Source: Anadara kagoshimensis
Taxonomy: Eukaryota > Mollusca > Bivalvia > Arcoida > Arcidae
Length of the DNA stretch: 64,000 nt
Reading direction: 5' to 3'
Assembly (NCBI GenBank): GCA_021292105.1
Contig: CM037871.1
Coordinates: forward strand, 54,273,366 to 54,337,365
In this document: positions 12,471 to 53,489 of the stretch, in pieces
How positions within the stretch are numbered: position 1 is the stretch's first letter
Layout of the letters: every line of letters starts with the position of its first letter
Program-made: the position numbers and the translations under genes
Notes under the pieces: generated by a model
Database searches by the model: none
What the model saw: the letters and a program-made list of their open reading frames with translations, nothing else
What the model was told of the DNA's origin: nothing

Positions 12471-12749
12471 TTTGACGTCGTCTTTTGATCTTGCTGAATT
12501 TTAAATTATTTTATTTGACTAACATAACTTGTATTTCCTTCATATGAAACACGAGGAAAGCCAGCTGTTTTAATATGTCCATGGCTGTTCTGTTTGACTT
12601 GCTTCCTTCATCATTTTGTGACGTCATGCTATGTTTTGCGATGTATAAAAAATAAAATCATTATTTTATTCATTGACGGTAATCTCAACACCCGAATATT
12701 GATGTGGGTTTCAATCATCAATGTCAATAACCAAGCCTACAAAAATATT

Positions 12750-12822
12750 GGCCAGTGTGGGGGTCAAACCCACGACATTCGCGTTGCTAGCACGACGCTT
12801 TAACCGACTGAGCTATTCGGCC
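12750..12822 (-). pseudogene. tRNA-Ala(AGC)-like sequence, pseudogene or SINE head
   Basis: The minus strand reads as a 73-nt tRNA-like unit: A box TAGCTCAGTCGGTTAAAG, an anticodon arm with stem TCGTG/CGCGA and loop CTAGCAA (anticodon AGC), and a T arm GTGGGTTTGACCCCCAC. The acceptor stem has only four Watson-Crick pairs plus one wobble (GGCCGAA against ACTGGCC), and the D stem is poor. A functional tRNA is therefore unlikely. Its 3' end recurs at 11575, which favours a dispersed tRNA-derived element. Confidence 0.5.
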
Positions 12823-13262
12823 ATGATGGAACCAAACTGGTGAAGTGATATAGCTGATGATGATATACAAATACAGAAAATACCAAATAAAAAAGAAAGC
12901 TTCATTTAAAGTCGGGAATATAGAAACAATTAACATAAACTAATGAGGTCTTTATAGACTACAATAGAATCAAAATCACATTTACATTAAGCATAGCACA
13001 ATATATTATACATATATTAATATTTGTATTTGTACATTTTGTTATACATTACATAATTCAATACATACACGATACTTCATTTGAAAAATTACCAATTAAA
13101 ATTTATGAAAAACAATAAAATAAGCTGATTTAAAATAATACAACGAAAAACAAATAAAGCATATAATGATACACAATATAAATAGCAACGAAACTAAAGT
13201 GTTTAATATAAAGCAACTGAACTGTAACTGTATAAAGTAAAATAAAAAATAAATAAAAAGCA
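12823..13262. other. AT-rich non-coding stretch
   Basis: Nothing recognisable. The minus-strand frame at 13130-13321 is low-complexity and runs into the repeat at 13263. Confidence 0.5.
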
Positions 13263-26723: not shown

Positions 26724-26932
26724 CAGGCCTGTCGAAAGTTTAACACTGAGTTAACAAAAAATAAAAGAAACCTAAACTACAGAGTGACCGAGAGATACAT
26801 ACCTAGTCACAGAAAAAATGCTGTCAAGAGGTACATGTATATAGCAGCTGTCGAAATAACGAGCGGTCAAGATGTGCTAATGTCCAATTTGGCACCAATC
26901 CGTTAGCTTAGTGTAAAAATGTCTACAGGCCC
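26724..26932. mobile_element. TIR element 'GTCGAAAG', compact copy
   Basis: About 210-bp non-autonomous DNA element. The left end GGCCTGTCGAAAGTTTAACA is matched by a diverged inverted right end (TTAGTGTAAAAATGTCTACA then GGCC). The interior has about one and a half copies of a motif (GACCGAGAGATACATACC, TAGTCACAGAAAAA) that is the unit of the 32-bp array at 36903-38212. Other copies lie at 36810-38275 and, reversed and truncated, 56305-56440. No transposase is present; superfamily not assigned. Confidence 0.75.
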
Positions 26933-27105
26933 GTACCGTAAATCAATTTGTTCCATTTTTTACATTTTCTTTTATTTCTAACAGCATTTAAGAACGTATT
27001 TAAAGTTGCTGATTTTACTTTGACAAGGTTAAGGCCATCTAGTTGTTTTAGAAGTAATGTACTAACGGTTTGGTTTTTTATTATTTCATATTTATGAACT
27101 AAATG

Positions 27106-27216
27106 TACGTCTCCAACAAAACTGAAGATGGTAAGGTTTCTTCACCACAGAATTACTCAGTATCGTGTTCTGGTAAATATCATCCCCAATAAAACTGAAG
27201 ATGGTAAGGTTTTTGG
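27106..27216 (+). repeat. Direct repeat upstream of the hammerhead element
   Basis: AAAACTGAAGATGGTAAGGT occurs twice, near 27119 and 27189, about 70 bp apart in the same orientation. It may belong to the same retrozyme-like element as the ribozymes or be an older local duplication. Confidence 0.6.
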
Positions 27217-27275
27217 ATCATTTATTTAGTTATAAATTATAAATTATACAATTTTTGTTTCATAATTTTGTTCCA

Positions 27276-27321
27276 AGCACTACTGATGAGGAATTGTATT
27301 CCGAAACGGCCGTCTAGTGCT
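27276..27321 (+). ncRNA. Hammerhead ribozyme, type I (copy 1)
   Basis: All core elements are present in order: stem I 5' strand AGCACTA (27276-27282), core CTGATGA (27283-27289), stem II GGAAT/ATTCC with loop TGT (27290-27302), GAAA (27303-27306), a 2-bp stem III with GGCC loop, cleavage triplet GTC (27312-27314), and stem I 3' strand TAGTGCT (27315-27321), a perfect complement. Cleavage is predicted after 27314. The self-complementary ACGGCCGT of stem III is typical of hammerheads that work best as dimers, as known from newt satellite 2 and retrozymes. Stem I is the open one, so this is type I. Confidence 0.92.
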
Positions 27322-27335
27322 GTAATAATAAAACT

Positions 27336-27569
27336 GGGACCAGTTTTCGAAGCTTGATTAGTTTAATGAATTGATTAGTGAAAATTTAAATTTTGTAAAA
27401 TTTCAGATATTTTGCAAAATTTATGTCGAAATAATAAAAAAGAATAGAACAAACTAAAGCACATTGTTATAAAACTATCAATTTTATAATGCTATCTTGA
27501 TCTTTATTGATGTTTTTAATTTTTGTTAATCCTTGATTAAACTAATCAAGCTTCGAACAACCGCGTCCT
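27336..27569. mobile_element. TIR element lying between the two hammerheads
   Basis: The left terminus GGGACCAGTTTTCGAAGC and on through TTGATTAGTTTAA is mirrored by AAACTAATCAAGCTTCGA and GCGTCC at the right end. The core about 20 bp are perfectly inverted. The AT-rich interior has no coding capacity. It appears to be an insertion that enlarged the hammerhead monomer; target duplication is not obvious. Confidence 0.65.
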
Positions 27570-27834
27570 GGTATAAGATATATACATGTCTGCTGGTGGC
27601 TGGAGCACCGAGGATATCACAAACTCAGTAGGCAATAATTGTGTATTATTGTCAGAAATATGCTATTGTCTAAATTTACAGCAAGCTAAAATTTAAAATT
27701 CCTCAAAAACTAACTAAAGGTATACTCCCTCATGCGAAGTATTTCCTTAGCTAAATTTGGTAAAATATACTTTGGTCCTTTTGGTAATCTTTTCAACATC
27801 GTGAAAGCAATTTTGGTTTCATAATTTTGGTCCA

Positions 27835-27880
27835 AGCACTACTGATGAGGAATTGTATTCCGAAACGGCCGTCTAGTGCT
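27835..27880 (+). ncRNA. Hammerhead ribozyme, type I (copy 2)
   Basis: Identical over all 46 nt to the copy at 27276-27321: stem I AGCACTA/TAGTGCT, core CTGATGA, stem II with TGT loop, GAAA, short stem III, cleavage after GTC at 27873. The unpaired and paired positions are equally conserved, so the pair is either young or maintained. The 44-bp satellite begins only 16 nt after its end. Confidence 0.92.
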
Positions 27881-27896
27881 GTAAAATTAAAACTGG

Positions 27897-29791
27897 TAAT
27901 ACCGTATAATATATCACAAATTATCAGGTTCTGGTACTAGTAATACCGTATAATATATCACAAATTATCAGGTTCTGGTACTAGTAATACCGTATAATAT
28001 ATCACAAATTATCAGGTTCTGGTACTAGTAATACCGTATAATATATCACAAATTATCAGGTTCTGGTACTAGTAATACCGTATAATATATCACAAATTAT
28101 CAGGTTCTGGTACTAGTAATACCGTATAATATATCACAAATTATCAGGTTCTGGTACTAGTAATACCGTATAATATATCACAAATTATCAGGTTCTGGTA
28201 CTAGTAATACCGTATAATATATCACAAATTATCAGGTTCTGGTACTAGTAATACCGTATAATATATCACAAATTATCAGGTTCTGGTACTAGTAATACCG
28301 TATAATATATCACAAATTATCAGGTTCTGGTACTAGTAATACCGTATAATATATCACAAATTATCAGGTTCTGGTACTAGTAATACCGTATAATATATCA
28401 CAAATTATCAGGTTCTGGTACTAGTAATACCGTATAATATATCACAAATTATCAGGTTCTGGTACTAGTAATACCGTATAATATATCACAAATTATCAGG
28501 TTCTGGTACTAGTAATACCGTATAATATATCACAAATTATCAGGTTCTGGTACTAGTAATACCGTATAATATATCACAAATTATCAGGTTCTGGTACTAG
28601 TAATACCGTATAATATATCACAAATTATCAGGTTCTGGTACTAGTAATACCGTATAATATATCACAAATTATCAGGTTCTGGTACTAGTAATACCGTATA
28701 ATATATCACAAATTATCAGGTTCTGGTACTAGTAATACCGTATATATATATCACAAATTATCAGGTTCTGGTACTAGTAATACCGTATAATATATCACAA
28801 ATTATCAGGTTCTGGTACTAGTAATACCGTATAATATATCACAAATTATCAGGTTCTGGTACTAGTAATACCGTATAATATATCACAAATTATCAGGTTC
28901 TGGTACTAGTAATACCGTATAATATATCACAAATTATCAGGTTCTGGTACTAGTAATACCGTATAATATATCACAAATTATCAGGTTCTGGTACTAGTAA
29001 TACCGTATAATATATCACAAATTATCAGGTTCTGGTACTAGTAATACCGTATAATATATCACAAATTATCAGGTTCTGGTACTAGTAATACCGTATAATA
29101 TATCACAAATTATCAGGTTCTGGTACTAGTAATACCGTATATATATCACAAATTATCAGGTTCTGGTACTAGTAATACCGTATAATATATCACAAATTAT
29201 CAGGTTCTGGTACTAGTAATACCGTATAATATATCACAAATTATCAGGTTCTGGTACTAGTAATACCGTATAATATATCACAAATTATCAGGTTCTGGTA
29301 CTAGTAATACCGTATAATATATCACAAATTATCAGGTTCTGGTACTAGTAATACCGTATAATATATCACAAATTATCAGGTTCTGGTACTAGTAATACCG
29401 TATAATATATCACAAATTATCAGGTTCTGGTACTAGTAATACCGTATAATATATCACAAATTATCAGGTTCTGGTACTAGTAATACCGTATAATATATCA
29501 CAAATTATCAGGTTCTGGTACTAGTAATACCGTATAATATATCACAAATTATCAGGTTCTGGTACTAGTAATACCGTATAATATATCACAAATTATCAGG
29601 TTCTGGTACTAGTAATACCGTATAATATATCACAAATTATCAGGTTCTGGTACTAGTAATACCGTATAATATATCACAAATTATCAGGTTCTGGTACTAG
29701 TAATACCGTATAATATATCACAAATTATCAGGTTCTGGTACTAGTAATACCGTATAATATATCACAAATTATCAGGTTCTGGTACTAGTAA
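27897..29791 (+). repeat. 44-bp satellite, about 43 near-identical copies
   Basis: The unit starts TAATACCGTATAATATATCA and ends TCTGGTACTAG. Almost every copy is identical; the only obvious variants are TA-number changes near 28741 and 29141. Such homogeneity over 1.9 kb points to recent amplification or strong homogenisation. The array starts where the hammerhead direct repeat ends, at a shared CTGGTA, suggesting a junction within that short homology. No unique spacers, so it is not a CRISPR array. Confidence 0.97.
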
Positions 29792-31455
29792 TTTTTTTTG
29801 CAAAACATGCACAATAAAACCGGAAATGGGAGCTTTTATGGATTTTTGATCAAGCGTATAATTCTAGTTCATTCTTCGGAACGCTTTTGTTCCAACATTC
29901 ATATTGATTCTTTAAAAACCAATGAAGTCGAAGTATTGTCTATGAACCAAATTGGAGACATTTGTGCACTTTTGGAGCACATGATCCTAGCTAAAACGAC
30001 CATAAAATGATACAATTGAGCTTTGTGTTGTCACTATCTTTAGCTTGTTAATAATACAAGTATAGTATGCATTGGCATAAAGCAAAAACGAGCTTATAAC
30101 CCAACATACATGTATATACATGTTATAGACCTTTTTTCTAAATTTAATCAAAAAATACAATTAAAGAAATGGTATATGACATACTTAATAAATACGATAG
30201 CCGCAGAATACAGTGTTAACATTGAAGGTGGTCTAAGCATAAAACAAAACAATACAGCTTCTTATATTTTATTCCATGTAGAATTGTTATTTTTTTATTG
30301 AATCAAAATTGTGGGGAAAAGCATTATTTAGTAAGAACAAAAAGTGTATAATGGTTATGTATTTACCAAGCATTTATTGTCTTTAAAACTTCACTATGTG
30401 CTTATCTATCACCTACAGTTCTGTAATTGTCACAAACATGTGTCTGCTTGGTCCTTACTACAATTTTATTTTTGTATTGTATATGTTATTATGTATGTTT
30501 TATGGCATGTGACACGTTAATAAAATAAATTATATATACTACAATACAAAAAAAGTGTATTCCTGTGTTTGATTGCTCATGGCAGATTTCAAAATGGTAT
30601 AATATTTTTAAATAAATTTCAAATACATTTTCTGAACTTTCATTTAGTATTTAGTCTATCATAAAATGACAAAAGTGATAGAATAAAACTTGTTCTAATT
30701 TTGTTAAAAGTTTGTTCAAAGTTGATTGGATTTAAAGGCAAGTTACAACTTTCAAAACCTTTCTTCTAACTTTTAAGCGTTTAGACTTTCAAAAATTTCA
30801 TGTTCTCGCCGGGAGATGATTCTCGATATTTCCTTCAACAAATAATATTTTATATAGTATGTTTCATATTCATAAAGCTGCAAATCGTCTATAAAGAATA
30901 CCGGCTTTAAAACAGAAAACATTGTACAGTAAAGGCTCTATTACATACATTTGTTTTCAGACTAAAAAAAACTAAAATAAAAATTAAAGAACCGCCTACT
31001 TATACCCTGAGTTTTGGAAAAACAGCATTAAAACTTCAGCTAAAATTGGATAACTTGGACAAATATACAATTTGACATAATATAATTTCCTGATGTGATT
31101 TGGTTTTGGAGTTTTCAGAGAAATCTGGTTATGACGATTTTAGATGTATGGCTCCGTACTTTGATGCAATAACGTCTGATAAAATTCAATTACAATAGAT
31201 CACTCGCCTGAGTGTGTATTTGACACTCTTTTATTAGCATAAATCAAAATTGTAATTACGTTACGGCAAGATTCTTAACGTGTAAGGAATGTAGGATTAT
31301 GTTACTCTGTCATACATAAACACATCACGACTCTCAGACACAAATAGTTATGTTTTTATGTATTTATAAAATTCCAACATTCAAAATTAAACTTGTGTGG
31401 ATAGAGAGATGTTTGAATTGTTTTATTGATTTTTAAAAAGTGTGTATGTTAATAT

Positions 31456-38539: not shown

Positions 38540-38955
38540 TCTCCGGTTTTTTTTGGAGATGTTGAGCTTACCATCTCCGGCTTTAGCGGAATCGTTCGTC
38601 TTATTTTCTCCGGTTGTATTAGAGCTGTATCTCTTATATCTCCGGCTTAATCGGAATACTTCGTCTTTATCTCATGTTATTTAGAATGATTCTTCTTTCA
38701 ATCTCCGGTTTTATTGGAAATGTTCATTTTACCATCCCCGGTTTTATTGGAAATGTTCGTCTTACCATCTCTGATTTAATCGGAGTGTTTCATCATACCC
38801 TCCCCAGCTTTACTGAAATTGTTCATCAGACCATCTCCGATTTAATGGGAGTCGATCATCTTACAATCCCCATCCCCGCTTGTATTGGAGTTGTTTGTCT
38901 CGTCTAACCATCTCCGATTTACTTGGAAATGTGTTTCTAAATGTTGCCATCACCC

Positions 38956-38992
<37 letters not shown>

Positions 38993-40470
38993 AATCTCTT
39001 GTTTTGTTTGGAATCGTTGGCCTTACTATTTCCAGCTTAATTGGAGTTATTTGTCTTACTATATCCAGTTTTATCGGAGCTGTTCATCTTACCTACCATC
39101 TCCATATTTCATTATAATCGTATAGATGATTATCTTCGGTTTTATTGGAGATGTTCGTCTCACAGTCTTCCCCTTTTTTAACCATTCGCCTAACTTTGGT
39201 TTTATGGTAGTTTTTAGTCACATTATCTCCGGTTTTATTGGAACTGTTCATCTTACCATCGCCATGTTTTATTATAATCGTTCGTATAACTATCTCCGAT
39301 TTTACAATCTTTGGTTTTATTGGAGCTGTTCGTCTCACCGTCTCCCATTGAATTGTAATCTTACGTTTTACTATGCCGGGTATCCGGTTTTATTGGACCC
39401 GTTCCTCTTACAACATCACAATTCATTGGGGCTTTTCATTTTGTCGCCTTCTGATTATTGGAATCGTTGATCTTACTTTCTGTGGTTTAAATGGATCTGT
39501 TCCTCTTACCATCTCCTTTTATACTGGAATCGTTTGTCTTACAATGTCCGACTTAATCCAAATTGTTCGTCATCATCTCTGCTTTAATTGGAATGGTTCA
39601 TCTCTCCATATGTTCTGGATTGCTATGCCCATGCGAGTGACAATAAACCACGCAACAATATATAATATATATTAATGTTTATCATGGCGACCTTATTGAT
39701 TGTCCTCCATCTTGTCAATGGTCTACTTTAGCCCCGTTTTGGAATTTAATGCGGGGCTTAAGAATATTCATCGAAAAAGAAGTATTGAAGTTGTGCGTTT
39801 TACCACCTCAACTTTAGGTGGAATTGTTTTTCTCACAATCTCGGGTTTTATTAAATTTGTTCGTCTTACAATCTTCGGTTTTAGTGGAATTGTTCGTCTC
39901 ACAATATCGGGTTTTATTGAATTTGTTCGTCTTACAGTTTCCGGTTTGAGTGGTATTGTTCGTCGCACAATCTCAGGTTTTATTGAATTTGTTCGTCTTA
40001 CAGTCTTCGGTTTTAGTGGAATTGCACGTCTCGGGTTTTATTGAATTTGTTCGTCTCACAATCTTCGGTTTTACCGGAATTGTTCGTCTCACAATATCGG
40101 GTTTTATTGAATTTGTTCGTCTTACAGTTTCCGGTTTTAGTGACATTGTTTGTCGCACAATCTCGGGTTTTATCGGATTTGTTCGTCTTACAATCTCCGG
40201 TTTTAGTGGAATTGTTCGTCACACAATCTCGGGTTTCATTTGGATTTGTTCGTCTTACAATCTCCGGTTTTAGTGGAATTGTTCGTCACACAATCTCGGG
40301 TTTTATTGAATTTGTTCGCCTTACAATCTCCGGTTTTAGTGGAATTGTTCGTCACACAATCTGGGGTTTTATTGGATTTGTTCGTCTTACAATCTCCGGT
40401 TTAGTGGAATTCTTCATCTCACAATCTCGGGTTTTATTGGATTTGTTCGTCTTACATTTTCCGGTTTGTT
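38540..40470 (+). repeat. 33-bp minisatellite with age gradient
   Basis: Unit approximately TTCGTCTTACAATCTCCGGT followed by TTTAGTGGAATTG. The left half (38540-39660) is highly diverged and interrupted by a poly(T) tract. The right part (39820-40470) is homogeneous and shows a two-unit higher-order repeat alternating a TTTATTGAATTTGTTCG unit with a TTTTAGTGGAATTGTTCG unit. As 33 is a multiple of three, many frames stay open on both strands and give 11-residue periodic peptides. I see no sign that they are translated. Confidence 0.9.
38957..38990. repeat. Poly(T) tract inside the 33-bp array
   Basis: About 34 consecutive T residues replacing part of a repeat unit. It could be the A-tail of a retroposed sequence on the minus strand, or slippage. 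Confidence 0.85.
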
Positions 40471-45138: not shown

Positions 45139-46652
45139 CTTTGTTTTTACTCTTTAATTGGGATTGTGATTTGGACATGGATTTCTGTTTGTTTTTACTT
45201 TGCATTGGGATTGTGATTTGGACATGGATTGGTATATTTGTTTTAACTTTGCATTGGGATTGTGATTTGGACATGGATTGGTATGTTTGTTTTAACTTTG
45301 CATTGTGATTGGGATTTGGACATGGATCGGTATATTTGTTTTTACTTTCCTTTGGGATTGTGATTTGGACATGGATTGGTATGTTTGTTTTAACTTTGAA
45401 TTGGGATTGTGATTTGGACATGGATTGGTATATTTGTTTTAACTTTGAATTGGGATTGTGATTTAGACATGGATTGGTATATTTGTTTTAACTTTGAATT
45501 GGGATTGTGATTTGGACATGGATTTGTATATTTGTTTTAAATTTGCATTGGGATTGTGATTTGGACATGGATTGGTAAGTTCGTTTTAACTTTGAATTGG
45601 GATTGTGATTTGGACATGGATTGGTATATTTGTTTTAACTTTGAATTGGGATTGTGATTTGGACATGGATTGGTATATTTGTTTTAACTTTGAATTAGGA
45701 TTGTGATTTGGACATGGATTGGTATATTTGTTTTAACTTTGCATTGGGATTGTGATTTGGACATGGATTGGTAAGTTTGTTTTAACTTTGAATTGGGATT
45801 GTGATTTGGACATGGATTGGTATATTTGTTTTGACTTTGAATTGGGATTGGGATTTGGACATGGATTGGTATATTTGTTTTAACTTTGAATTGGGATTGT
45901 GATTTGGACATGGATTGGTATATTTGTTTTAACTTTGCATTGGGATTGTGATTTGGACATGGATTGGTATGTTTGTTATAACTTTGAATTGGGATTGTGA
46001 TTGGACATGGATTGGTATATTTGTTATAACTTTGAATTGGGATTGTGATTGGACATGGATTGGTATATTTGTTTTTACTTTGCATTGTGATTGTGATTTG
46101 GACATGGATTTCTATGTTCGTTTTAACCTTGAATTGGGATTGTGATTTGGACATGGATTGGTATATTTGTTTTTACTTTGAATTGGGATTGTGATTTGGA
46201 CATGGATTGGTATAGTTGTTTTAACTTTGCATTGGGATTGTGATTTGGACATGGATTGGTATATTTGTTTTTACTTTGCTTTGGGATTGTGATTTGGACA
46301 TGGATTGGTAAGTTTGTTTTAACTTTGAATTGGGATTGTGATTTGGACATGGATTGGTATGTTTGTTTTTACTTTGAATTGGGATTCTGATTTGGACATT
46401 GATTGGTATGTTTGTTTTTACTTTGCATTGTGATTGGGATTTGGACATGGATTGGTATGTTTGTTTTTACTTTGCATTGTGATTTGGATTTGGACATGGA
46501 TTGGTATGTTTGTTTTTACTCTGCATTGTCAATGGGATTTGGACATGGATTGGTATGTTTGTTTTTACTTTGCATTGTGATTTGGATTTGGACATGGATG
46601 GGTATGTTTGTTTTTCCTTTGAAATGGGATAGGGATTTGGACATGGATTGCT
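45139..46652 (-). repeat. 49-bp minisatellite derived from the CAAAC element
   Basis: About 31 units. On the minus strand the unit reads AAACAAATATACCAATCCAT, GTCCAAATCACAATCCC, AATTCAAAGTT, which is the first 49 bp or so of the CAAAC element. The plus-strand form is GATTTGGACATGGATTGGTA. The rest of the element is absent at both ends. Variants (TTTGAATTGGG, TTTGCATTGTG) are partly clustered, with TTTGCATTGTG concentrated toward 46400-46640. Open frames on both strands are read-through. Confidence 0.95.
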
Positions 46653-48899
46653 ATCATTATCGACAACATACGAGTAAACGCAACGGTATACTGTACATGT
46701 ATGGCTCACTGTTCATCATTATCGACAACATACGAGTACACTCACCGGTATACTGTACATGTATGGCTCACTGTTCATCATTATCGACAACATACGAGTA
46801 CACTCACCGGTATACTGTACCTGTATGGCTCATTGTTCATCACTATCGACAACATACGAGTACACTCACCGGTATACTGTACCTGTATGGCTCATTGTTC
46901 ATCATTATCGACAACATACGAGTACACACACCGGTATACTGTACCTGTATGGCTCACTGTTCACCATTATCGACAACATACGAGTACACACACCGGTATA
47001 CTGTACCTGTATGGCTCACTGTTCATCATTATCGACAACATACGAGTACACACACCGGTATACTGTACATGTATGGCTCACTGTTCATCATTATCGACAA
47101 CATACGAGTACACTCACCGGTATACTGTACCTGTATGGCTCACTGTTCATCAGTATCGACAACATACGAGTACACACACCGGTATACTGTACATGTATGG
47201 CTCACTGTTCATCATTATCGACAACATACGAGTACACTCACCATCTATACTGTACATGTATGGCTCACTGTTCATCATTATCGACAACATACGAGTACAC
47301 TCACCGGTATACTGTACATGTATGGCTCACTGTTCATCATTATCGACAACATACGAGTACACTCACCGGTATACTGTACATGTATGGCTCACTGTTCATC
47401 ATTATCGACAACATACGAGTACACTCACCGGTATACTGTACATGTATGGCTCACTGTTCATCATTATCGACAACATACGAGTACACTCACCGGTATACTG
47501 TACATGTATGGCTCACTGTTCATCATTATCGACAACATACGAGTACACACACCGGTATACTGTACATGTATGGCTCACTGTTCATCACTATCAACAACAT
47601 ACGAGTACACTCACCGGTATACTGTACATGTATGGCTCACTGTTCATCATTATCGACAACATACGAGTACACTCACCATCTATACTGTACATGTATGGCT
47701 CACTGTTCATCATTATCGACAACATACGAGTACACTCACCGGTATACTGTACATGTATGGCTCACTGTTCATCATTATCGACAACATACGAGTACACACA
47801 CCGGTATACTGTACATGTATGGCTCACTGTTCATCATTATCGACAACATACGAGTACACTCACCATCTATACTGTACCTGTATGGCTCACTGTTCATCAT
47901 TATCGACAACATACGAGTACACTCACCGGTATACTGTACATGTATGCCTCAATGTTCATCATTATCGACAACATACGAGTACACTCACCATCTATACTGT
48001 ACCTGTATGGCTCACTGTTCATCAGTATCGACAACATACGAGTACACTCACCGGTATACTGTACATGTATGGCTCAATGTTCATCATTATCGACAACATA
48101 CGAGTACACTCACCGGTATACTGTACATGTATGGCTCACTGTTCATCATTATCGACAACATACGAGTACACACACCGGTATACTGTACATGTATGGCTCA
48201 CTGTTCATCATTATCGACAACATACGAGTACACTCACCGGTATACTGTACATGTATGGCTCACTGTTCATCATTATCGACAACATACGAGTACACTCACC
48301 GGTATACTGTACATGTATGGCTCACTGTTCATCATTATCGACAACATACGAGTACACACACCGGTATACTGTACATGTATGGCTCACTGTTCATCATTAT
48401 CGACAACATACGAGTACACACACCGGTATACTGTACATGTATGGCTCACTGTTCATCATTATCGACAACATACGAGTACACTCACCGGTATGCTGTACAT
48501 GTATGGCTCACTGTTCATCATTATCGACAACATACGAGTACACTCACCGGTATGCTGTACATGTATGGCTCACTGTTCATCATTATCGACAACATACGAG
48601 TACACTCACCGGTATACTGTACATGTATGGCTCACTGTTCATCATTATCGACAACATACGAGTACACTCACCGGTATACTCTACATGTATGGCTCACTGT
48701 TCATCATTATCGACAACATACGAGTACACACACCGGTATACTGTACATGTATGGCTCACTGTTCATCATTATCGACAACATACGAGTACACTCACCGGTA
48801 TACTGTACATGTATGGCTCACTGTTCATCAGTATCGACAACATACGAGTACACACACCGGTATACTGTACATGTATGGCTCACTGTTCATCATTATCGA
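46653..48899 (+). repeat. 62-bp satellite, plus-oriented arm, about 36 copies
   Basis: Unit CATCATTATCGACAACATAC, GAGTACACTCACCGGTATAC, TGTACATGTATGGCTCACTG, TT. Variants: CACACACCGG for CACTCACCGG, CCTGTATGG for CATGTATGG, TCAGTATCG for TCATTATCG, and a 63-bp form with CACCATCTATAC. The array starts inside a 49-bp unit (GGACATGGATTGCTAT) and stops mid-unit at ATTATCGA. The unit has no stop in any plus frame, and since 62 is not a multiple of three all three frames read the same 62-residue periodic peptide. The frames of up to 860 codons are therefore not genes. Confidence 0.97.
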
Positions 48900-49088: not shown

Positions 49089-52000
49089 ATGAACAGTGAG
49101 CCATACATGTACAGTATACCGGTGAGTGTACTCGTATGTTGTCGATAATGATGAACAGTGAGCCATACATGTACAGTATACCGGTGAGTGTACTCGTATG
49201 TTGTCGATAATGATGAACAGTGAGCCATACAGGTACAGTATACCGGTGAGTGTACTCGTATGTTGTCGATAATGATGAACAGTGAGCGATACATGTACAG
49301 TATACCGGTGAGTGTACTCGTATGTTGTCGATAATGATGAACAGTGAGCCATACATGTACAGTATACCGGTGAGTGGACTCGTATGTTGTCGATAATGAT
49401 GAACAGTGAGCCATACAGGTACAGTATACCGGTGAGTGTACTCGTATGTTGTCGATAATGATGAACAGTGAGCCATACATGTACAGTATACCGGTGAGTG
49501 TACTCGTATGTTGTCGATAATGATGAACAGTGAGCCATACATGTACAGTATACCGGTGAGTGTACTCGTATGTTGTCGATAATGATGAACAGTGAGCCAT
49601 ACATGTACAGTATACCGGTGAGTGTACTCGTATGTTGTCGATACCGATGAACAGTGAGCCATGCATGTACAGTATACCGGTGAGTGTACTCGTATGTTGT
49701 CGATAATGATGAACAGTGAGCCATACATGTACAGTATACCGGTGTGTGTACTCGTATGTTGTCGATATTGATGAACAGTGAGCCATACATGTACAGTATA
49801 CCGGTGAGTGTACTCGTATGTTGTCGATAATGATGAACATTGAGCCATACATGTACAGTATACCGGTGAGTGTACTCGTATGTTGTCGATAATGATGAAC
49901 AGTGAGCCATACAGGTACAGTATACCGGTGAGTGTACTCGTATGTTGTCGATAATGATGAACAGTGAGCCATACAGGTACAGTATACCGGTGAGTGTACT
50001 CGTATGTTGTCGATAATGATGAACAGTGAGCCATACATGTACAGTATAGATGGTGAGTGTACTCGTATGTTGTCGATAATGATGAACAGTGTTCCATACA
50101 TGTACAGTATACCGGTGAGTGTACTCGTATGTTGTCGATAATGATGAACATTGAGCCATACATGTACAGTATACCGGTATACTGTACTCGTATGTTGTCG
50201 ATACTGATGAACAATGAGCCATACATGTACAGTATAGATGGTGAGTGTACTCGTATGTTGTCGATAATGATGAACAGTGAGCCATACATGTACAGCATAC
50301 CGGTGTGTGTACTCGTATGTTGTCGATACTGATGAACATTGAGCCATACATGTACAGTATACCGGTGAGTGTACTCGTATGTTGTCGATAATGATGAACA
50401 GTGAGCCATACAGGTACAGTATACCGGTGAGTGTACTCGTATGTTGTCGATAATGATGAACAGTGAGCCATACAAGTACAGTATACCGGTGAGTGTACTC
50501 GTATGTTGTCGATAATGATGAACAGTGAGCCATACATGTACAGTATACCGGCGTGTGTACTCGTATGTTGTCGATAATGATGAACAGTGAGCCATACATG
50601 TACAGTATACCGGTGTGTGTACTCGTATGTTGTCGATAATGATGAACAGTGAGCCATACATGTACAGTATACCGGCGTGTGTACTCGTATGTTGTCGATA
50701 ATGATGAACAGTGAGCCAAACATGTACAGTATACCGGTGAGTGTACTCGTATGTTGTCGATAATGATGAACAGTGAGCCATACATGTACAGTATACCGGT
50801 GTGTGTACTCGTATGTTGTCGATACTGATGAACATTGAGCCATACAGGTACAGTATACCGGTGAGTGGACTCGTATGTTGTCGATAATGGTGAACAGTGA
50901 GCCATACATGTACAGTATACCGGTGAGTGTTCTCGTTTGTTGTCGATACTGATGAACAGTGAGCCATACATGTAGAGTATACCGGTGAGTGTACTCGTTT
51001 GTTGTCGATAATGATGAACAGTGAGCCATACATGTACAGTATACCGATGAGTGTACTCGTATGTTGTCGATAATGATGAACAGTGAGCCATACATGTACA
51101 GTATAGATGGTGAGTGTACTCGTATGTTGTCGATAATGATGAACAGTGAGCCATACATGTACAGTATAGATGGTGAGTGTACTCGTATGTTGTCGATAAT
51201 GATGAACAGTGAGCCATACATGTACAGTATAGATGGTGAGTGTACTCGTATGTTGTCGATAATGATGAACAGTGAGCCATACATGTACAGTATAGATGGT
51301 GAGTGTACTCGTATGTTGTCGATAATGATGAACAGTGAGCCATACATGTACAGTATAGATGGTGAGTGTACTCGTATGTTGTCGATAATGATGAACAGTG
51401 AGCCATACATGTACAGTATACCGGTGTGTGTACTCGTATGTTGTCGATAATGATGAACAGTGAGCCATACATGTACAGTATACCGGTGAGTGTACTCGTA
51501 TGTTGTCGATACCGATGAACAGTGAGCCATACATGTACAGTATACCGGTGAGTGTACTCGTATGTTGTCGATAATGATGAACAGTGAGCCATACATGTAC
51601 AGTATACCGGTGAGTGTACTCGTATGTTGTCGATATTGATGAACAGTGAGCCATACATGTACAGTATACCGGTGTGTGTACTCGTATGTTGTCGATAATG
51701 ATGAACAGTGAGCCATACATGTACAGTATACCGGTAAGTGTACTCGTATGTTGTCGATAATGATGAACAGTGAGCCATACATGTACAGTATAGATGGTGA
51801 GTGTACTCGTATGTTGTCGATAATAATGAACAGTGAGCCATACATGTACAGTATACCGGTGTGTGTACTCGTATGTTGTCGATAATGATGAACAGTGAGC
51901 CATACAGGTACAGTATACCGGTGTGTGTACTCGTATGTTGTCGATAATGATGAACAGTGAGCCATACATGTACAGTATACCGGTGTGTGCACTCGTATGT

Positions 52001-53489
52001 TGTCGATAATGATGAACAGTGAGCCATACATGTACAGTATACCGGTGAGTGTACTCGTATGTTGTCGATAATGATGAACAGTGAGCCATACATGTACAGT
52101 ATAGATGGTGAGTGTACTCGTATGTTGTCGATATTGATGAACAGTGAGCCATACATGTACAGTATACCGGTGTGTGTACTCGTATGTTGTCGATGATGAA
52201 CAGTGAGCCATACATGTACAGTATACCGGTGAGTGTACTCGTATGTTGTCGATAATGATGAACAGTGAGCCATACATGTACAGTATAGATGGTGAGTGTA
52301 CTCGTATGTTGTCGATAATGATGAACAGTGAGCCATACATGTACAGTATAGATGGTGAGTGTACTCGTATGTTGTCGATAATGATGAACAATGAGCCATA
52401 CATGTACAGTATACCGGTGAGTGTACTCGTATGTTGTCGATAATGATGAACAGTGAGCCATACATGTACAGTATACCGGTGAGTGTACTCGCATGTTGTC
52501 GATACTGATGAACAGTGAGTCATACATGTACAGTATACCGGTGAGTGCACTCGTATGTTGTCGATAATGATGAACAGTGAGCCATACATGTACAGTATAC
52601 CGGTGAGTGTACTCGTATGTTGTCGATAATGATGAACAGTGAGCCATACATGTACAGTATACCGGTGAGTGTACTCGTATGTTGTCGATAATGATGAACA
52701 GTGAGCCATACATGTACAGTATACCGGTGTGTACTCGTATGTTGTCGATAATGATGAACAGTGAGCCATACATGTACAGTATACCGGTGAGTGTACTCGT
52801 ATGTTGTCGATAATGATGAACAGTGAGCCATACATGTACAGTATACCGGTTTGTGTACTCGTATGTTGTCGATAATGATGAACAGTGAGCCATACATGTA
52901 TAGTATACCGGTGTGTGTACTCGTATGTTGTCGATAATGATGAACAGTGAGCCATACATGTACAGTATACCGGTGAGTGTACTCGTATGTTGTCGATAAT
53001 GATGAACAGTGAGCCATACAGGTACAGTATACCGGTGAGTGTACTCGTATGTTGTCGATACTGATGAACAATGAGCCATACATGTACAGTATACCGGTGT
53101 GTGTACTCGTATGTTGTTGATAGTGATGAACAGTGAGCCATACATGTACAGTATACCGGTGTGTGTACTCGTATGTTGTCGATAATGATAAACAGTGAGC
53201 CATACATGTACATTATACCGGTGCGTGTACTAGTATGTTGTCGATAATGATGAACAGTGAGCCATACATGTACAGTATACCGGTGTGTGTACTCGTATGT
53301 TGTCGATAATGATAAACAGTGAGCCATACATGTACATTATACCGGTGCGTGTACTCGTATGTTGTCGATAATGATGTACAGTGAGCCAAACATGTACAGT
53401 ATACCGGTGAGTGTACTCGTATGTTGTCGATAATGATGAACAGTGAGCCATACATGTACAGTATACCGGTGAGTGTACTCGTATGTTGT
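49089..53489 (-). repeat. 62-bp satellite, minus-oriented arm, about 71 copies
   Basis: Same unit as 46653-48899 but inverted (plus strand reads AACAGTGAGCCATACATGTA and so on). The 63-bp variant with TATAGATGGTGAG is common and forms a homogeneous run of six at about 51090-51365. Right-edge units (53100-53400) carry private changes (CATTATACCGGTGCGTG, GATAAACAG). It ends mid-unit at GTATGTTGT. Minus-strand frames of up to 1436 codons are read-through, as in the plus arm. Confidence 0.97.

Follow-up and report, generated by a model that had tools for sequence, protein, structure and literature searches.

A damaged non-LTR retrozyme in Anadara kagoshimensis and the fixed 3′ end of its hammerhead family

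The window analyzed here, a stretch of 64,000 nucleotides from Anadara kagoshimensis, contains two hammerhead ribozymes in direct repeat. We consider it probable that the locus represents an animal non-LTR retrozyme that is old and damaged and whose family is copied by the cycle proposed below, most likely with the reverse transcriptase of a Penelope-like element. The 3′-end pattern of the family is of more interest than the window locus itself: the 3′ end lies at a fixed point, 35 to 37 nt beyond the cleavage site, in 63 of the 75 insertions selected through the hammerhead and in 14 of the 16 selected through the tail.

The two hammerheads of the window are 46 nt long, of type I, 559 nt apart and identical letter for letter. 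Each has CTGATGA, a 5-bp stem II with a TGT loop, GAAA, GTC and 7-bp stem I arms (AGCACTA/TAGTGCT); at the sequence level the catalytic core is intact and stem I forms the open helix. The original prediction had described this identical pair and its motifs correctly, and also its predicted cleavage positions; the base preceding each predicted cut is C. The direct repeat that holds the pair proved longer than claimed, at 89 nt (27249-27337 and 27808-27896, 96% alike), and no long terminal repeats were seen at the locus beyond it. A loose hammerhead pattern run over both strands of the whole window matched at four places, with GTC present only in the two copies described here. The Rfam hammerhead models gave no match in the whole window at gathering score and none over 26800-28200 at E values up to 10.

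Set against the family unit, the window copy begins with unit positions 274-339 and the start of a second unit, continues with a foreign stretch and then with positions 56-339, and closes with the tail (Table 1). The foreign stretch is a 230-bp inverted-repeat element that we scored at 40 places out of 1790 first-look candidates, with 81 to 100% identity; 38 of these 40 places lie outside the window locus and its paralogue, and the element is also found apart from retrozymes, as at L089. At L089 it adjoins a minisatellite resembling, by eye, the 49-bp array at 45140-46654 of the window. Because this element was inserted, the 559 nt represent one damaged unit and not the unit of the family. The earlier proposal of a retrozyme-like locus thus stands, with thousands of dispersed copies and some head-to-tail arrays of 339 nt, and its 559-nt monomer does not, 230 nt of it being the inserted element.

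Table 1. Features of the window copy and their positions in the window
Feature	Positions	Strand	Basis
First retrozyme unit, 5′-truncated (unit positions 274-339 and start of next unit)	27250-27337	+	blastn of 339-nt unit on L001; direct repeat
Type I hammerhead 1, predicted cut after 27314	27276-27321	+	Sequence and identity check
230-bp inverted-repeat (MITE-like) element within retrozyme unit, CTGG at both borders	27338-27567	+	25-nt arms 96% complementary; genome-wide copies
Remainder of retrozyme unit, 88% match to unit positions 56-339	27568-27873	+	blastn of unit
Type I hammerhead 2, predicted cut after 27873	27835-27880	+	Sequence and identity check
Retrozyme 3′ tail, 6-nt difference within family end motif (by inspection); exact end uncertain	27874-27914	+	
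44-bp minisatellite, 43.2 copies, 99% alike, overlaps retrozyme tail	27892-29792	+	

A paralogue, L002, lies on the same contig 1.9 Mb away and carries the same 230-bp insertion and both hammerheads. Where compared, its flanks are 94 to 98% identical to those of the window locus, so the two represent one insertion that was duplicated, and the full 605-nt stretch is present at only these two places in the genome. The locus is a 5′-truncated, later duplicated retrozyme copy and not a typical working unit. We also weighed a unit that functions with its insert as a larger retrozyme, making a 559-nt circle. Hammerhead cores are intact throughout both paralogues, and the window hammerheads are identical to those of the family unit against ∼12% divergence elsewhere in the locus; at an even divergence of 11.7%, zero changes in 92 nt would have a P of ∼1e-5, a value to be read with the fact that the finding was picked for its intact hammerheads. 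Restriction of the 605-nt stretch to a single duplicated insertion, together with the occurrence of the inserted element without a retrozyme, nevertheless makes a functional 559-nt retrozyme very improbable.

The two paralogues also differ at the 3′ side. The 44-bp minisatellite comprises 43 units beside the window copy against a single partial match of 38 nt at L002. It overlaps the retrozyme tail and so probably grew from the 3′ end of the element; expansion at the 3′ end of the window copy is the probable course, and the array may instead have shrunk at L002. Degenerate repeats around 'AATAAAACTGAAGATGGTAAG' lie at 27108-27225 and 29806-29850, their 73-bp form having ∼10 more copies in L002 than in the window copy, and repeats of similar appearance, judged by eye, occupy the opposite strand at 38685-40467. 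Elsewhere in the window, two 62-bp minisatellite arrays of 36 and 71 copies (46653-48899 and 49089-53489), whose units are exact reverse complements, face each other across ∼190 bp, and a tRNA-Ala (AGC) gene lies on the minus strand at 12748-12823.

The original prediction held that such a locus should have other copies in the genome, and it does: across the 36 contigs (1,115,223,567 bases), searching with a 32-nt core pattern gave 3994 exact matches (2067 + 1927) and searching with the reversed control pattern gave none, so the hammerhead pair is not due to chance. The family unit is 339 nt long with 33.9% GC, and the arrays repeat it without an open reading frame (ORF) of at least 130 amino acids. 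At L009, for example, one truncated unit is followed head to tail by four full units of 338 to 339 nt and then by 38 nt of another. Matches in L001 to L078 were chained into 100 arrays, of which 75 were kept as insertions; selection of these loci through the hammerhead constrains the 5′ end and not the 3′ end, and some share flanks and are duplicates. One hammerhead is present in 64 of the insertions, two in nine, three in one and five in one. No compensatory changes in stem I were seen among 29 distinct hammerhead copies, a result to be expected of copies decaying once inserted. The idea that one array derives from one circle gave a mixed result. At L009 alone did the members of an array resemble one another more than they resembled units elsewhere; in the L005 and L053 arrays, and in the poorly aligned L030 array, each unit was more like one at a different locus than like its neighbors.

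The 3′ ends of the insertions follow a strict pattern. A tail motif is present in 63 of the 75 insertions, and in 57 of those 63 the distance between the cut and the end of the motif is exactly 33 nt; AA comes next and then usually TT. Beyond the tail the flank base counts of these 63 anchored insertions cease to follow the unit, and in none of them does the flank resemble the next part of it. The exceptions are 11 insertions lacking the anchor motif and one (L034) that reads on. Among the 16 tail-selected loci, the two that do not end at the fixed point are L105, which reads on, and L094, which is doubtful. Genome-wide, the tail core occurs 4236 times, and in 2476 cases it immediately follows CGTC and the accompanying stem I arm; 372 of these 2476 continue exactly into the next unit, the rest being true ends mixed with diverged read-through. 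Read from these ends, the pattern indicates a template RNA that was either uncut at the ribozyme site or joined there, with copying starting from a single internal position 35 to 37 nt further on. A limited literature search (PMC7229834, PMC11167929, PMC7761336, PMC8490949 and PMC11722881, each here and below in the portions available to us) found no report of a fixed 3′ end in animal retrozymes, and the review among them states that no conserved motif indicating the partner of a retrozyme had been seen (PMC7761336).

The 5′ starts, by contrast with the 3′ ends, take 59 values among the 75 insertions; the median insertion is 249 nt long and 52 are shorter than one unit. Copying driven by LINEs likewise gives constant 3′ and variable 5′ ends. 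The observed ends would thus also fit a SINE-like family, whose linear RNA has a defined 3′ terminus and serves as template for a reverse transcriptase of the LINE type, the hammerhead being a passenger or a 5′ trimmer. Such a family would, however, have to account for the head-to-tail arrays, which need a circular or multimeric template, for a 3′ end at which no poly-A or simple repeat was seen, and for the fact that the same hammerhead-plus-tail form occurs in a Penelope-like element of this genome. We regard SINE-like copying as unlikely.

Target duplications of at least 7 nt were found in 8 of the 63 insertions, against 1.1% of 3906 mismatched pairs; duplications of at least 6 nt were present in 11 of the 63, where chance would give 3.5%. 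This is a modest excess over chance and most insertions show no duplication, although L016 has one of 32 nt. Long duplications were rejected as a rule, given that in a free test 2 of the 75 insertions reached 9 nt compared to 4 of 300 mismatched pairs. In metazoan non-LTR retrozymes, target-site duplications are longer than 4 bp when present.

A preference for 5′ ends starting exactly at the cut was likewise set aside; genome-wide it was seen at 20 places, compared to counts of 13, 11 and 1 for the controls, with patterns whose reach differs slightly. Such starts were seen at L090, L095, L096 and L099 among the 16 tail-selected loci, and L095 and L096 may be one event because they are alike on both sides. 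At L090, L095 and L096, the upstream unit sequence shows a jump at, or immediately beside, the base that follows the predicted cut, and part of the hammerhead is skipped. These three jumps may reflect template switching at a cleaved end, which is unsupported as a general rule.

The Penelope-like elements of this genome offer the closest parallel to the 3′ ends of the retrozymes. L086 contains an ORF with RVT_1 and GIY-YIG domains and has its own hammerhead, and L084, L085 and L086 all carry a minimal hammerhead with the palindrome ACATGT. Their sequences agree completely up to a point 64 or 68 nt beyond the hammerhead cut and differ after it. The L086 end has 39 further scored matches, some of which may be tandem copies and not ends, and every one stops at query positions 243-251, equivalent to 63 to 71 nt past the cut. 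The hammerhead of L084 to L086 differs from that of the retrozyme in all three stems, and the two tails have no obvious sequence in common. As far as sequence comparison goes, a hammerhead, a short spacer and a fixed end are thus common to the retrozyme and these elements in form and not in sequence. Among eight GIY-YIG loci, out of 50 matches, none was a Penelope-like element with the hammerhead and tail of the retrozyme.

Several of these loci have features of their own. A whole retrozyme lies near the GIY-YIG locus L083, and L079 and L080 resemble other GIY-YIG genes by eye. L085 and L086 (C15:59519167-59524924) are two Penelope-like copies, inverted, in one place, and their 497-codon stop-to-stop stretches differ near one end.

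The existence in this genome of Penelope-like elements with minimal type I hammerheads raises the question of whether the two hammerheads of the window are the terminal repeats of a decayed element of that kind. There is no ORF of at least 130 amino acids at 27-30 kb of the window, an ORF with reverse transcriptase and GIY-YIG being absent at the locus, and the 339-nt arrays lack one too. Given also the differences in all three stems, descent from such an element is scarcely credible.

Working on an Anolis Penelope-like element, Frangieh et al. (2024; PMC11167929) found internal initiation of reverse transcription, and the genomic 'tail' of Penelope-like elements arises because reverse transcription starts internally; mutants of the hammerhead were without effect on insertion in vitro. 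Like the retrozyme, this element (Poseidon) has a hammerhead followed by a short stretch ending at the start of reverse transcription, and AT-rich targets beginning near ATT (PMC11167929). Unlike the retrozyme, it encodes a reverse transcriptase with a GIY-YIG nuclease, and the tail sequences differ. By subtraction from the coordinates of PMC11167929, copying of the Anolis element starts 85 to 92 nt past the cut, compared to tails that end 64 to 68 nt past it in L084 to L086 and 35 to 37 nt past it in the retrozyme. From its genomic end pattern alone, the retrozyme has the fixed tail of Penelope-like elements and would work like them, although it is not a member of the group. By analogy, this shared hammerhead-plus-tail form suggests that a Penelope-like element copies the retrozyme. 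A Penelope-like partner is the likeliest, a LINE partner being the main rival.

Stem III of the retrozyme hammerhead is the palindrome ACGGCCGT. The predicted native fold of the monomer (-8.9 kcal/mol) is less stable than the predicted optimum (-13.4 kcal/mol), whereas the predicted optimum for two strands (-36.7 kcal/mol) is exactly the double-hammerhead form. Since two strands fold best in this way, the retrozyme hammerheads would be expected to cut as dimers, as in newts and axolotl (PMC7229834). The type I hammerhead repeats of those animals similarly have a very weak palindromic stem III and units of 330 to 350 nt; they differ from the family described here in sequence, and a two-pair stem III closing GGCC is found here.

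In the cycle that we propose, two hammerheads of the transcripts would associate by their palindromic stem III and then cut. The 339-nt products would be closed into circles, and part of the RNA would stay multimeric and uncut. Reverse transcription, most likely by the enzyme of a Penelope-like element, would then start within the RNA ∼35 nt past the cleavage site and run a variable distance, and most new copies would therefore be shorter than one unit and a few would be head-to-tail arrays. In this scheme we infer cleavage, the circles and the identity of the enzyme. At the window locus, the 230-bp element would have landed within the unit, the region would have been duplicated and the minisatellite would have grown at the 3′ end or shrunk at the paralogue.

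The non-LTR retrozymes of mussel, coral and axolotl have a type I hammerhead, units of ∼170 to 400 nt, low GC and thousands of copies (PMC7229834). Metazoan non-LTR retrozymes as a class form tandem repeats of ∼150 to 450 bp, cleave themselves, give abundant circular RNA and lack LTRs, a primer-binding site and a polypurine tract. The family described here shows the features of this class (GC below 50%, no coding capacity, an intact type I hammerhead and dispersed tandem repeats, with up to five hammerheads in a sampled array), and its anatomy of type I hammerhead, tandem units, low GC and many dispersed copies identifies it, on sequence grounds, as one of the animal non-LTR retrozymes. The retrozyme of Mytilus galloprovincialis is alike in its type I hammerhead, units of a few hundred nucleotides, low-GC tandem repeats, thousands of copies and lack of visible coding capacity, but its unit measures ∼350 to 390 nt compared to 339 nt here, where the sequence is the family's own (PMC7229834). 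The window locus further differs from it in carrying an insertion. Unlike for this family, no description of a fixed 3′ end past the hammerhead was found in the available sections of PMC7229834. Plant LTR retrozymes share the non-coding nature, the paired hammerheads and a proposed circular RNA intermediate, but they have type III hammerheads, long terminal repeats, circles of 600 to 800 nt and GC above 55% (PMC7229834).

More tentatively, animal retrozymes in general may parasitize Penelope-like elements by imitating their hammerhead-plus-tail form. Their circular or uncut RNA would then be copied from a site within it, ∼35 nt beyond the ribozyme, with the tail acting as the recognition signal that links retrozyme and Penelope-like element. 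A fixed 3′ end at this distance, in a form shared with Penelope-like elements, would make the question of the retrozyme's partner testable in vitro and in existing genomes.
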